Origin: Thermus oshimai DSM 12092
GTDB taxonomy: Bacteria > Deinococcota > Deinococci > Deinococcales > Thermaceae
Assembly (NCBI RefSeq): GCF_000373145.1
Contig: NZ_KB890622.1
Span: forward strand, 1-64,000
Direction: 5' to 3'
DNA: 64,000 nucleotides
Below, piece by piece: positions 20,324 through 24,037 of the stretch (its first letter is position 1; the number at the start of each line of letters is the position of its first letter). The position numbers were made by a program, and so were the translations under genes. The notes below the pieces were generated by a model. The model had not been told where the DNA came from and searched no databases. It saw nothing but the letters and a program-made list of their open reading frames with translations.

Positions 20324-20872
20324 GTGGTGGCGGTGGTGTACACCGAGGATCTGGAGCTTTACGCGGAGCTTTACCGGGTTTTGCGGAACGCGGGCTGGAA
20401 GGTTTCTTGGAAAGAGGGTAAGGGGGTGGCCCTGGCGGACCTCGGCCACCTCCCCTGGGGCCAGGTCTGGGTCTGGCGCACCCCTTTCGGCCTAAGGGCC
20501 TACGAGCCCAAGGCCCTCCGCTTCCTCACCCGCCGGGACGACCCAAAGACCCTTCCCCAGGGCCTCCTGGGGCGGGGAGGGTTTTGCCTTTCCCCCGGGG
20601 AGGCGCGGGCCCTGGCCCACCTGGGGGGGGTGGAGGGGGCTCTGGAAGGGCTCAACAGGGACCAAAGGCGTTTTTTCCTCAAGCGAATCCGCCTCAAGTT
20701 CGGCCTCCCCGAGCCCCTCCTCCAGGCCCTAGCGCGGCATCAGGTGGAGGTAGCGGGGCTTCAGGACCACCTCCAGAGGCTGGCCCGGCTGGAGGCGGAG
20801 CCGTTCCTGCACGTGCCGGGGCAGGAGGATCTCCAAGGTCAGAGGCCCCTGGAAGCGGCCCCGGTGGCCTAG
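20324..20872 (+). CDS. Hypothetical protein with response-regulator-like opening
   Basis: Protein of 182 residues. It opens MVAVVYTEDLELYAELYRVL and then RNAGWKVSWKEG, which resembles the first strand and helix of a receiver or ligand-binding alpha/beta fold. The middle (GLNRDQRRFFLKRIRLKFGLPEPLLQAL) looks like a helical DNA-binding or dimer region. The start is GTG 20324 with AGGAGG 7 nt upstream; longer frames upstream overlap the previous gene and are unlikely. The 3' end overlaps the convergent modC by 144 nt, which is unusual; the native stop may have been lost. I cannot name a family. Confidence 0.55.
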   Translation: MVAVVYTEDLELYAELYRVLRNAGWKVSWKEGKGVALADLGHLPWGQVWVWRTPFGLRAYEPKALRFLTRRDDPKTLPQGLLGRGGFCLSPGEARALAHLGGVEGALEGLNRDQRRFFLKRIRLKFGLPEPLLQALARHQVEVAGLQDHLQRLARLEAEPFLHVPGQEDLQGQRPLEAAPVA

Positions 20873-21727
20873 CCCCTCGGGGTAAAGGGTTTCCAGGGTG
20901 CCCTGGAGGGTGTTCTCCTGGGGCTTGGGCCGGTCGGGGCGGACCACCAGGACCTCCTCCGCCCGCACCGCCAAAAAGGCCCGCGCCCCGGGCCGGGCCC
21001 AGGCGGGGAGGGGGAGGCGGAGGAAGACCCCTCCGGCCCACACCCCCCCTTCCCCCACCTCCACGGGGAAGACGTTGGCGTAGCCCAAAAGCCGGGCCAC
21101 CCGGCTCTCCGCGGGGCGGGCCAGGACCTCGGGGGTGGGGCCTTCCTGGACGATCCGGCCCTCCAGGAGCACCGCCAGCCGGTCGGCGAAGCCCACCAGG
21201 TCGGGGTCGTGGCTCACCGCCAGGGTGGGGAGGCCCTCCTTGCGGATGAGGTCCACCAGTTCCGCCAGCACCTGGGTGCGGGTGAGGGCGTCCAGGTTGG
21301 AGGTGGGCTCGTCCAGGAGGAGGAGCTCTGCCCCCCGGGCCAGGGCCCGGGCCAGGGCCACCCGCTGCCTTTGCCCCCCGGAAAGCTGGTGGGGCCGCTT
21401 CTCGGCGTGCTCCAAAAGCCCCACCCGCTCCAGGAGGAGGAGGGCCTTTCTTCGGGCCTCCCTGGGGGGGTCTTTGAGGGGGAAGGCCACGTTTTCCCAG
21501 GCCCTAAGGTGGGGGAAGAGGGCCAGGTCCTGGGGGAGGTAGCCCACGGGCCGCCGCTCTGGGGGGAGGCCGGAAAACGGCGTCCCCTCCGCGGGTAGGA
21601 GGCCCGCAAGGGCCTTTAAGAGCGTGCTCTTCCCCGCCCCGCTTTCCCCGAGGAGGACGGTGAAGCCCTCCACGGTGAGGTGGGCCTCGAGGCGGATGGG
21701 CCTCCTTATCTGGTAGCGGATCTCCAC
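20729..21727 (-). CDS. modC: Molybdate/tungstate ABC transporter, ATPase subunit ModC
   Basis: ATPase of 332 residues that powers oxyanion import. Walker A is GESGAGKSTLLKAL, the signature is LSGGQRQRVALARAL, and Walker B is LLLLDEPTSNLD. The C-terminal ~100 residues contain a MOP/TOBE-like domain (ENTLQGTLETLYPEGLGHRG... and LRLQPGQPLEVVLKPRYLHL), which in ModC binds molybdate or regulates transport. It overlaps modB by 22 nt and is the last gene of the modABC operon. Confidence 0.92.
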   Translation of the reverse strand: MEIRYQIRRPIRLEAHLTVEGFTVLLGESGAGKSTLLKALAGLLPAEGTPFSGLPPERRPVGYLPQDLALFPHLRAWENVAFPLKDPPREARRKALLLLERVGLLEHAEKRPHQLSGGQRQRVALARALARGAELLLLDEPTSNLDALTRTQVLAELVDLIRKEGLPTLAVSHDPDLVGFADRLAVLLEGRIVQEGPTPEVLARPAESRVARLLGYANVFPVEVGEGGVWAGGVFLRLPLPAWARPGARAFLAVRAEEVLVVRPDRPKPQENTLQGTLETLYPEGLGHRGRFQGPLTLEILLPRHVQERLRLQPGQPLEVVLKPRYLHLMPR

Positions 21728-22395
21728 CGGCGCCCCCTTTCCTCCAGGCTCCGGCCCAGGTAAAGGAAGAGGAAGCTCAGGAGGAAGAGCACCCCCGAGG
21801 CCCAGGCGGCCTCCCGGAACCTAAGGGCCTGCACCAGGTCGTAGATGTAGATGCTCACCATCTGGGTCTTGCCGGGGATGGCCCCCCCCACCATGAGGAC
21901 CACCCCAAACTCCCCCAGGGTGTGGGCGAAGGCCAGGAGGCTCCCCGAGAGGAGGCCGGGCCAGGTGAGGGGGAGGATGAGCCTCCCCCAGAGCTTGAAA
22001 GGTCCCGCCCCCAGGGTGCGGGCGGTGTCCAGGAGGCTTCGGTCCAGGGCTAAGAAGGCCTCCCGGTAGGCGGTGAGGGCGAAGGGGAGGCTGAAGAGGA
22101 CGCTGGACACCACCAGGCCCTCAAAGCGAAAGGCCCAGCTCAGCCCCAAAAGGCGGTGGAGGGGCCCCTCGGGCCCCAGGAGGAGGAGGAGGTAGAACCC
22201 CAGGACCGTGGGGGGCAGGACCAGGGGGAGGAGGAAGGGGAGGAGGAAGAGGGTTTCCAGGACCCGCTTTCCCGGAAAGGCCTTGAAGGCCAGGAGCCAG
22301 GCCAAGGGTACCCCGAGGAGGAGGAGGAGGAGGGTGGAGGCCAGGGCCACCCAAAAGGTGAGGTTCAGGGTTTGGAGGAAGGCGGGATCCGGCAC
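21706..22395 (-). CDS. modB: Molybdate/tungstate ABC transporter, permease subunit ModB
   Basis: Membrane subunit of 229 residues with about five to six helices. It begins FLQTLNLTFWVALASTLLLL and LLGVPLAWLLAFKAFPGKRV, typical of ModB. The EAA loop that contacts ModC is DTARTLGAGPFKLWGRLILPLTWPGLLSG. GGAIPGKTQMVSIYIYDLVQ is a block conserved in molybdate permeases. The start is GTG 22395, 3 nt after the modA stop. Confidence 0.93.
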   Translation of the reverse strand: MPDPAFLQTLNLTFWVALASTLLLLLLGVPLAWLLAFKAFPGKRVLETLFLLPFLLPLVLPPTVLGFYLLLLLGPEGPLHRLLGLSWAFRFEGLVVSSVLFSLPFALTAYREAFLALDRSLLDTARTLGAGPFKLWGRLILPLTWPGLLSGSLLAFAHTLGEFGVVLMVGGAIPGKTQMVSIYIYDLVQALRFREAAWASGVLFLLSFLFLYLGRSLEERGRRWRSATR

Positions 22396-22398
22396 CGC

Positions 22399-23283
22399 TT
22401 ACCCCTCCCCGGGCAGGAGGAAGCCGTAGCGGCGGAGGATGCTCCGCCCCTCCGGGCTTCCCACAAAGCGGTAAAAGGCCACCACCTCGGGCCTGTTCAT
22501 GCCCTTGAGGATCACATAGGCCTGCTCCAGGCTAAGGTGCCGGTCCAGGGGGGTCACCCAGTAGCGCCCCTTTTCCTCCAGGGCCGGGCTCTTGGCCACG
22601 GAGAGGGCCAGGAGGCCCACCCCCGTGCCGGTCAGGGCCAGCTGGGCGGCGTGGCTGATGTTCTCCCCGTAGACGAAGCTGAAGTTCCCCTTCCCCTGCC
22701 TTAAGGGGCTCACGTCAAAGTAGGCCTCGAGGCCCCGGTTCATCTCCTCCCAGGGGAGCTCTTTCCAGGAAAGCGCCCTAAATGGGCGCGGCAGGGCCAG
22801 AGGGGGGTTGGGGAGCCGGCGCAGGAGGCCGTAGCTCTCCAGGAGCGTGACCGCGGCCCGGCCGTAGGGGGCGTGGACGGGGTTGGCGAGGGCGATGCGG
22901 GTCACCTTGGGGTCCTTGAGGATCTCCGGCCCCCGGGAGGGGTCCAGCCCCAGGTCCTTCCGCACCCAAAGGACCATCCGCCCCACGGCGTAAAGGGCCC
23001 GGGTGCCGGGTTCCGCAAGCCCCTTTTCCTCCAGGAGCTTGGGGTAGACCTCCTCCGCGGAGAAGTAGAGGTCCGCGGGGAGGCCCTGGAGGAGCTGGGT
23101 GTAGAACTTGCCGGAGGAGCCGAAGCTGAGGGTCACCTTGACCTGGGGGTTGGCCCTTTGGAAGGCCTGGCGCATCTCCTCCAGGGCGTACTGCAGGTCC
23201 GAGGCCGCCACCACCCGCACCTCCTGGGCCAGGATCGGGCTTGGGAAGAGGAGGAGCCAAAGCAGGATGAGGGGGGTTCTCAC
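22399..23283 (-). CDS. modA: Molybdate/tungstate-binding periplasmic protein ModA
   Basis: Secreted solute-binding protein of 294 residues. A signal peptide (VRTPLILLWLLLFPSPILA) is followed by the ModA blocks VVAASDLQYALEEMRQAF, VTLSFGSSGKFYTQLLQGLPADLYFSA, IALANPVHAPYGRAAVTLLE and ENISHAAQLALTGTGVGLLAL. Whether it prefers molybdate or tungstate cannot be told from sequence. I chose GTG 23283, which has AAAGGAGGTGG 5 nt upstream; a longer frame to 23331 runs through the structured leader. That leader resembles a molybdenum-cofactor riboswitch, so the operon is probably controlled by cofactor level. Confidence 0.93.
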   Translation of the reverse strand: MRTPLILLWLLLFPSPILAQEVRVVAASDLQYALEEMRQAFQRANPQVKVTLSFGSSGKFYTQLLQGLPADLYFSAEEVYPKLLEEKGLAEPGTRALYAVGRMVLWVRKDLGLDPSRGPEILKDPKVTRIALANPVHAPYGRAAVTLLESYGLLRRLPNPPLALPRPFRALSWKELPWEEMNRGLEAYFDVSPLRQGKGNFSFVYGENISHAAQLALTGTGVGLLALSVAKSPALEEKGRYWVTPLDRHLSLEQAYVILKGMNRPEVVAFYRFVGSPEGRSILRRYGFLLPGEG

Positions 23284-23296
23284 GTCCACCTCCTTT

Positions 23297-23394
23297 GCGT
23301 CCGCGGCAGGCGGTGGGGTTGCCCCCACCACCCCGGAGCCTGAAGGGCTCGGCCCAGAAGGCCCTGGGGGTCTTCCGGGCTCGGAGGCGGGTTC
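23297..23394 (-). promoter_or_regulatory. Probable molybdenum-cofactor (Moco/Tuco) riboswitch in the modABC leader
   Basis: The leader is a dense set of nested dyads on the minus strand. It has an outer pairing of CCGCCTCCGAGCC with the distal GCCTGCCGCGG, an inner GGGCC-TTCT-GGGCC hairpin, an AGCC..GGCT stem, and a GTGGGG-GCAA-CCCCAC hairpin. CTCCGAGCC, GCCGAGCC and CCACCGCCTGCCG match what I remember of the Moco RNA family. The ribosome-binding site AAAGGAGGTGG follows directly, so translational control is likely. The family call is from memory of conserved blocks, not from a covariance search. Confidence 0.55.
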
Positions 23395-23400
23395 ATTTTA
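23395..23400 (-). promoter_or_regulatory. -10 hexamer (TAAAAT) of the modABC operon
   Basis: Minus-strand TAAAAT directly precedes the structured leader, so transcription would start at the 5' strand of the outer riboswitch stem. No clear -35 is visible in the GC-rich upstream sequence. Confidence 0.55.
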
Positions 23401-23419
23401 CGGCCCCCGGGGTGGGGCC

Positions 23420-24037
23420 CTAGAAGAGGGGTTCCTGGCTCACCGCCCGGATCTGGCGCCGGGGCTTGGGGGGGAGGGCCTCCAGGGCCTTCTTGACCTC
23501 CTGGATGTCCAGCCAGGTGAGGTGCTTGGGGCTCCCCTGGGCCCGGCTAGGGTTCCTTAGGAGGTAGGCGGGGTGGAACATGGGGAAGACCCGGATCCCG
23601 TGCCAGGTGAACCACTGCCCCCGCACCTTGGTGATGGAGACCTTGTCCCCCAGGAAGAACTCCGCCGCCACCGCCCCTAGGGGGACGATGATCTGGGGGG
23701 CCACCAGCTCGATCTGCTTGAGGAGCCACTTGTCCGTGCAGATCTTGGCCTCGTCGGGCAGGGGGGCGCGGTTCCCCGGGGGGCGGCACTTGACGATGTT
23801 GGTGATGTAGACCTCCTCCCGGGGAATCCCTGCGGCCTCGAGGATGCGGTTCAGGAGCTGCCCCGCCTTGCCCACGAAGGGCCGGCCCGTCTTGTCCTCC
23901 TCCTCCCCCGGGCCCTCCCCCACGATCATCAGGTTGGCGTCGGGGTTGCCCTCGCCGAAGACCACCTGGGTGCGGCCCTCGGCCAGGCGGCAGGCGGTGC
24001 AGGCCTTGGCCTGGGCTTCCAGGACGTCCAGGTTCAT
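23420..24037 (-). CDS. Family 4 uracil-DNA glycosylase (iron-sulphur)
   Basis: Thermostable DNA repair enzyme of 205 residues that removes uracil arising from cytosine deamination, a heavy load in thermophiles. The Cys ligands of the 4Fe-4S cluster are visible: C13 and C16 (KACTACRLAEGR), the Cys in VKCRPPGNR and the Cys in AKICTDKW. Active-site motifs are GEGPGEEEDKTGRPFVG and FHPAYLLRNP. The start overlaps the stop of the upstream gene (ATGA). Confidence 0.96.
   Translation of the reverse strand: MNLDVLEAQAKACTACRLAEGRTQVVFGEGNPDANLMIVGEGPGEEEDKTGRPFVGKAGQLLNRILEAAGIPREEVYITNIVKCRPPGNRAPLPDEAKICTDKWLLKQIELVAPQIIVPLGAVAAEFFLGDKVSITKVRGQWFTWHGIRVFPMFHPAYLLRNPSRAQGSPKHLTWLDIQEVKKALEALPPKPRRQIRAVSQEPLF

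Follow-up and report, generated by a model that had tools for sequence, protein, structure and literature searches.

Does the leader of the modABC genes in this genome carry a molybdenum-cofactor (Moco) riboswitch, and what would such an RNA control? An earlier note, made from the DNA letters alone, had likened this leader to the Moco RNA family and had held that control of uptake rather than of cofactor synthesis would be worth noting. We analyzed the locus within the window (the whole stretch of DNA, 64,000 nucleotides) and compared it with genomes of the same genus, family, and phylum. The target genes are as follows:

22399..23283, minus strand: modA, molybdate-binding protein, with a GTG start at 23283 (TIGR01256, 145 bits, cutoff 62.5)
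21706..22395, minus strand: modB, permease (TIGR02141, 211.5 bits, cutoff 182.6)
20729..21727, minus strand: ABC ATPase taken as modC (PF00005, E 1.2e-28)

The N terminus of ModA is signal-peptide-like, which is consistent with its relatives. The ATPase scores below the ModC cutoff (130.8 versus 285.05), and its name therefore rests on gene order. Upstream, on the same strand, lies a family-4 uracil-DNA glycosylase gene, whose stop is found about 20 bases before the predicted −10 box of the leader.

Identity and fold of the leader RNA

A cmscan search of the whole window returned two matches above cutoff, one tRNA and RF01055 (Molybdenum/Tungsten riboswitch aptamer). The latter scored 58.9 bits on the minus strand, with a gathering score of 36 and an E value of 1.4e-11, and its alignment covers the full model (1–135). 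With permissive filters, none of the other 13 Rfam matches in 22900–23800 reached the cutoff of its own family. The elements of the leader, in the order of transcription and preceded by the whole match, are as follows:

23274..23398, minus strand: Moco riboswitch aptamer (RF01055), whole match (cmscan)
23395..23400, minus strand: predicted −10 box TAAAAT (sequence; TANNNT at the same register in 26/26 leaders)
23383..23388, minus strand: 5′ strand of P1, GCCUCC (fold and Rfam alignment; pairs in the leader alignment)
23352..23380, minus strand: P2 stem-loop with an internal A/C mismatch, without the 11-nt tetraloop receptor (fold, leader alignment, receptor scan)
23336..23350, minus strand: P3 stem-loop, a feature of the Moco-type of the family (fold, Rfam alignment, leader alignment)
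23308..23333, minus strand: P4 stem-loop, GCAA tetraloop at 23319–23322 (fold, leader alignment)
23297..23304, minus strand: P5, two pairs (fold, Rfam alignment, leader alignment)
23288..23293, minus strand: 3′ strand of P1, GGAGGU, which doubles as the core of the ribosome site (fold, Rfam alignment, leader alignment)
23289..23296, minus strand: modA ribosome-binding site AAAGGAGG, 5 bases before the GTG (invariant in aligned leaders; spacing measured)

The match nearly coincides with the stretch 23284–23400 that had been proposed as the riboswitch. The described layout was also recovered: the TAAAAT box is followed by CTCCGAGCC, GCCGAGCC, and CCACCGCCTGCCG in the order given, and the leader ends at AAAGGAGG and the GTG of modA. 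The nested GC stems that had been read from the sequence correspond to a multi-stem fold, for which RNAfold gave a minimum free energy of −69.4 kcal/mol (23280–23395), compared with −53.69 ± 4.08 kcal/mol for 200 dinucleotide shuffles, none of which was as low (z −3.85). The minimum free energy structure from RNAfold alone is the five-stem Moco fold and agrees with the Rfam alignment; both place P1, P2, P4, and P5 around the conserved junction. P3 (GAGCC/GGCUC) assigns the window copy by stem content to the Moco-type, P3-containing subtype. P3-less (Tuco-type) variants belong to the same family and share the junction, but lack this stem.

Among the family's 50 genomes, RF01055 was found in 24, namely in 23 of the 27 genomes of the genus and in one genome of another genus; in the phylum, it was found in 27 of 111 genomes. 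The 26 family copies that we examined come from these 24 genomes, two of which have a second copy. In 24 of the 26, modA lies directly downstream (tblastn, with N termini compared). The glycosylase gene precedes 13 of these 24 copies and is absent from the stretch examined in the other 11, which indicates that the leader has remained linked to the mod genes in different genomic settings.

The leader alignment contains 25 sequences, as the leader of L014 is identical to that of L013, and was scored on the fold of the window leader, with P1 trimmed to the six pairs that Rfam gives it. Pairing was found in 98.8% of its 900 cells, compared with 38–59% in slid registers. This figure is favored by the choice of fold, which came from a member of the alignment, and the count of double-sided changes is the safer measure. 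Such changes occur in 8 of the 36 pairs (three in P2, two in P3, three in P4, none in P1 or P5) and amount to 17 cells, versus 3.0 ± 1.5 in shuffles, with 0 of 500 shuffles reaching the observed value. P1 is nearly invariant and offers too little variation for covariation testing. P3 pairs in all 25 leaders, and the unpaired junction bases are invariant. The two checks that the earlier note had suggested, the Rfam Moco model on the minus strand and covariation across related modA leaders, thus yielded both a covariance match and conserved stems, with P2, P3, and P4 covarying.

These data also bear on the reading that the leader merely folds by chance, as GC-rich sequence in a GC-rich genome would. 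Shuffled sequences do already average −53.7 kcal/mol, but an E value of this size over the whole window, the covariation in P2–P4, and the presence of RF01055 in nearly half of the family genomes, including copies at an unrelated locus, make this reading scarcely credible; together with the z score of the fold, they led us to rule it out. The modABC leader is a genuine, well-conserved member of RF01055.

Leader architecture and the proposed control of modA

Every one of the 26 leaders has a TANNNT box that ends 6–7 bases ahead of P1, against a background of 1.4% per tested place in the upstream DNA of the same loci. Transcription is predicted to start near 23388, the first base of P1. A −35 element with at least 4/6 matches was found in only 10 of the 26 leaders, and the window copy has 2/6 matches, so the start site is a prediction. 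At the other end, AAAGGAGG lies inside P1, as its 3′ strand, in 26/26 leaders. The distance from P1 to the end of AAAGGAGG is 99–101 bases, and the start codon follows 4–8 bases further. From the −10 register and the position of AAAGGAGG, the mRNA is predicted to begin with the aptamer, and the aptamer to end in the ribosome site. The aptamer would thus occupy nearly the whole leader, ribosome site included, with no room predicted for a separate expression platform. Control through a terminator downstream of the aptamer was considered and dismissed, as a terminator scan found none after the aptamer on the minus strand.

We consider it very probable that this RNA is a Moco-type RF01055 riboswitch through which the molybdate transporter encoded downstream is repressed. 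Transcription would begin on the first base of P1 or beside it, which would place the aptamer at the very 5′ end of the mRNA. When finished cofactor is plentiful, it would bind the junction and hold P1 (GCCUCC/GGAGGU) shut, and the closed P1 would hide the ribosome site of modA, leading to less ModABC. When cofactor is scarce, P1 would open, the 30S subunit would bind GGAGG, and molybdate uptake would rise. Repression of ModA translation by cofactor binding is the most likely mode by analogy; ligand and direction of control are taken from the family, and we infer the translational level of control and the transcription start.

The closest precedent is the E. coli moaA riboswitch (Regulski et al. 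2008, PMC2408646), in which the same motif, there too with its ribosome site inside P1, brings about repression of moaA upon Moco production. According to that paper, direct binding escaped demonstration because Moco is unstable, and the P3-containing form is tied to Moco. The E. coli and window RNAs have in common the five-stem fold with P3, the conserved junction, the ribosome site inside P1, and a molybdenum-related target (PMC2408646). They differ in that the window copy precedes uptake genes (modABC), whereas the E. coli RNA precedes synthesis genes (moaABCDE), and in that the window transcript is predicted to begin at P1. The suggestion that uptake control would be new did not hold: the motif is already known in Deinococcus–Thermus, and upstream of modABC in some bacteria (PMC2408646). 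Neither the host group nor the modABC target is new, and we make no discovery claim for either, because both appear in PMC2408646. A literature search found no paper on the Thermus modABC copy itself.

Energy modeling counts partly against this scheme. Freeing GGAGG at 65°C was modeled to cost 4.0 kcal/mol in the window copy and a median of 3.1 kcal/mol across the 26 leaders; 15 other GGAGG-start sites in the same loci, which are pattern matches rather than proven starts, had a median of 4.6, and the leaders were not higher. These modeled costs would weakly fit a ligand-dependent rather than a constitutive lock. In the model, P1 closes without ligand, less firmly at 65–70°C than at 37°C, and no distinct ON structure emerged.

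The copy in the modA leader is the only RF01055 match in its own genome (G000), and the 9 kb surrounding moaA contain none; joint control of the synthesis genes was therefore discarded. No ModE scored over cutoff in the 27 genus genomes. As a separate observation, some 107 bases separate moaA in G000 from a preceding 23S-5S-tRNA-Gly operon (L041:1-1462), and moaA follows 23S-5S-tRNA in 6/7 other genomes examined (L043–L048). Because of this position, moaA may be co-transcribed with rRNA. No Moco RNA was found at moaA in the stretch examined, either in its own genome or in 6/7 others.

Variation and decay within the genus

The P4 loop sets the copies of this bacterial family apart from most known members. 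According to PMC2408646, only five of 176 RNAs depart from GAAA in this loop, which goes with a receptor in P2; none of the four GCAA copies has the receptor, and they were counted as members. Instead of this usual pair, the window copy has a GCAA loop and no GAAA receptor was seen. Among the 26 family leaders, the loop is GCAA in 22, GUAA in two, GUGA in one, and GCGA in one. Scanning these 26 for both halves of a GAAA-type receptor gave no match; isolated half-matches (in four and two leaders) lie by eye in other loops. The three more distant copies of the phylum (L027–L029) have GAAA and CCUA. That the GNRA loops here differ from GAAA and come without its customary receptor is, in our view, a lesser new point.

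Four of the 27 genus genomes (G035, G036, G040, and G041) have no RF01055 match. G035 and G040 contain modA, and the aptamer was not found in its leader. In G036, which is without the riboswitch, the one ModA found is a distant one (42% identity). In G041, the modA leader (L040:1199-1295) has lost P3, its P4 loop is broken, and its junction is changed; it scores 50.6 bits with a clade model, folds with ordinary energy (z −1.04), and matches nothing in Rfam with an E value of 0.1 or below. Judged by its sequence, it is a decayed copy. We rejected the idea that this P3-less leader is a natural Tuco-type switch on the basis of the missing Rfam match, the broken P4, the changed junction, and the z score. 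Decay or absence in these four genomes is a further lesser new point.

Conservation and decay both bear on whether the leader might have lost ligand switching and, while retaining the fold of the family, serve only stability or temperature sensing. In the model, the GC-rich fold does keep P1 closed with no ligand bound, though less firmly at high temperature. A plain hairpin would not need the unpaired junction bases, however, which are invariant in 25 leaders, and the decay in G041 takes the junction and the P4 loop as well. We judged a thermometer or mere stability element very improbable, and the reading as a repressing, ligand-dependent riboswitch is retained.

A motif, TTGCAAACTTATGCAA, lies upstream of some leaders and occurs once per genome in 22 of the 27 genus genomes when one mismatch is allowed (G000:C19:28161-28176). 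It is often, but by no means in every genome, close to the mod riboswitch; as it is often found away from the riboswitch, it was not accepted as part of it. Perhaps it is an operator of a neighboring gene. The neighbor in L037 resembles argF by eye.

Second copies and the question of the ligand

Both second copies of the Moco RNA, in G030 (L025) and G047 (L012), lie beside a gene of the AOR (aldehyde oxidoreductase) family, usually a tungsten enzyme. In G030 (L030:4165-7132), genes for a binding protein (PF01497), a permease (FecCD), and an ATPase come after the copy; the block continues with a methyltransferase-like gene (by eye) and with a gene homologous to the TauE-family gene that G047 has. 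In G047 (L031:9818-9932), the TauE-family gene alone remains behind the second copy. The G030 block sits between pfkB and dehydrogenase genes that are adjacent in G000 and G026, so it looks inserted. Its PF01497 binding protein is present in 1/27 genus genomes. Relatives of the transporter were found at four loci elsewhere, none of which has a Moco RNA; in Bradyrhizobium, the relative has a ModA gene (330.7 bits, cutoff 264) in front of it. Solved relatives of the binding protein include HI_1472 (E 1e-9), which we take to be the molybdate-binding protein MolA. The second copies in these two genomes beside a tungsten-type AOR gene, one of them heading a FecCD transporter, are another lesser new point.

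Elsewhere in the phylum, RF01055 precedes modABC in G095 and a moaA-like gene (by eye) in G085. In G099 (L027:1501-1622), a P3-less RF01055 of 77.1 bits lies before a cluster of Fe-S, NrfD, and molybdopterin-oxidoreductase genes.

AOR-family genes are present in 26 of the 27 genus genomes, so the same RNA could respond to the tungsten cofactor, alone or along with Moco, with ModABC also serving tungsten enzymes. The one genome with no AOR-family gene at the threshold used, G036, likewise lacks the riboswitch and has only the distant ModA, and the second copies adjoin AOR genes. The co-absence in G036 is a single case, however, and PF00384 (molybdopterin-oxidoreductase) matches were found in 27/27 genomes, although some are probably complex I. 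P3, which pairs throughout the leader alignment, marks the form tied to Moco in PMC2408646. We consider a tungsten or dual ligand quite unlikely, and Moco remains the preferred ligand.

A broader reading, which we regard as speculative and on balance doubtful, would combine these features. The clade would have a streamlined Moco riboswitch sub-type, with the start on the first base of the aptamer and the ribosome site as its last strand, and with the P2–P4 contact rebuilt around other GNRA loops in the absence of the GAAA receptor. It would work amid near-universal AOR-type (tungsten) enzymes, and a copy would have been carried to an AOR locus, where it stands before an importer of the FecCD type. 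In that case, P3 might not guarantee strict specificity for Moco, and the FecCD importer could represent a new molybdate/tungstate transporter.

The locus offers a riboswitch whose ligand is hard to prove, in its simplest form, in which the aptamer is predicted to occupy almost the entire leader, and in a lab-tractable thermophile lineage in which no ModE was found. Intact, decayed (G041), and absent (G035 and G040) versions before the same gene form a natural test series, and structural studies may benefit from the thermophile copies. For the P3 rule that separates Moco from Tuco, the copy at the AOR gene would be directly informative.
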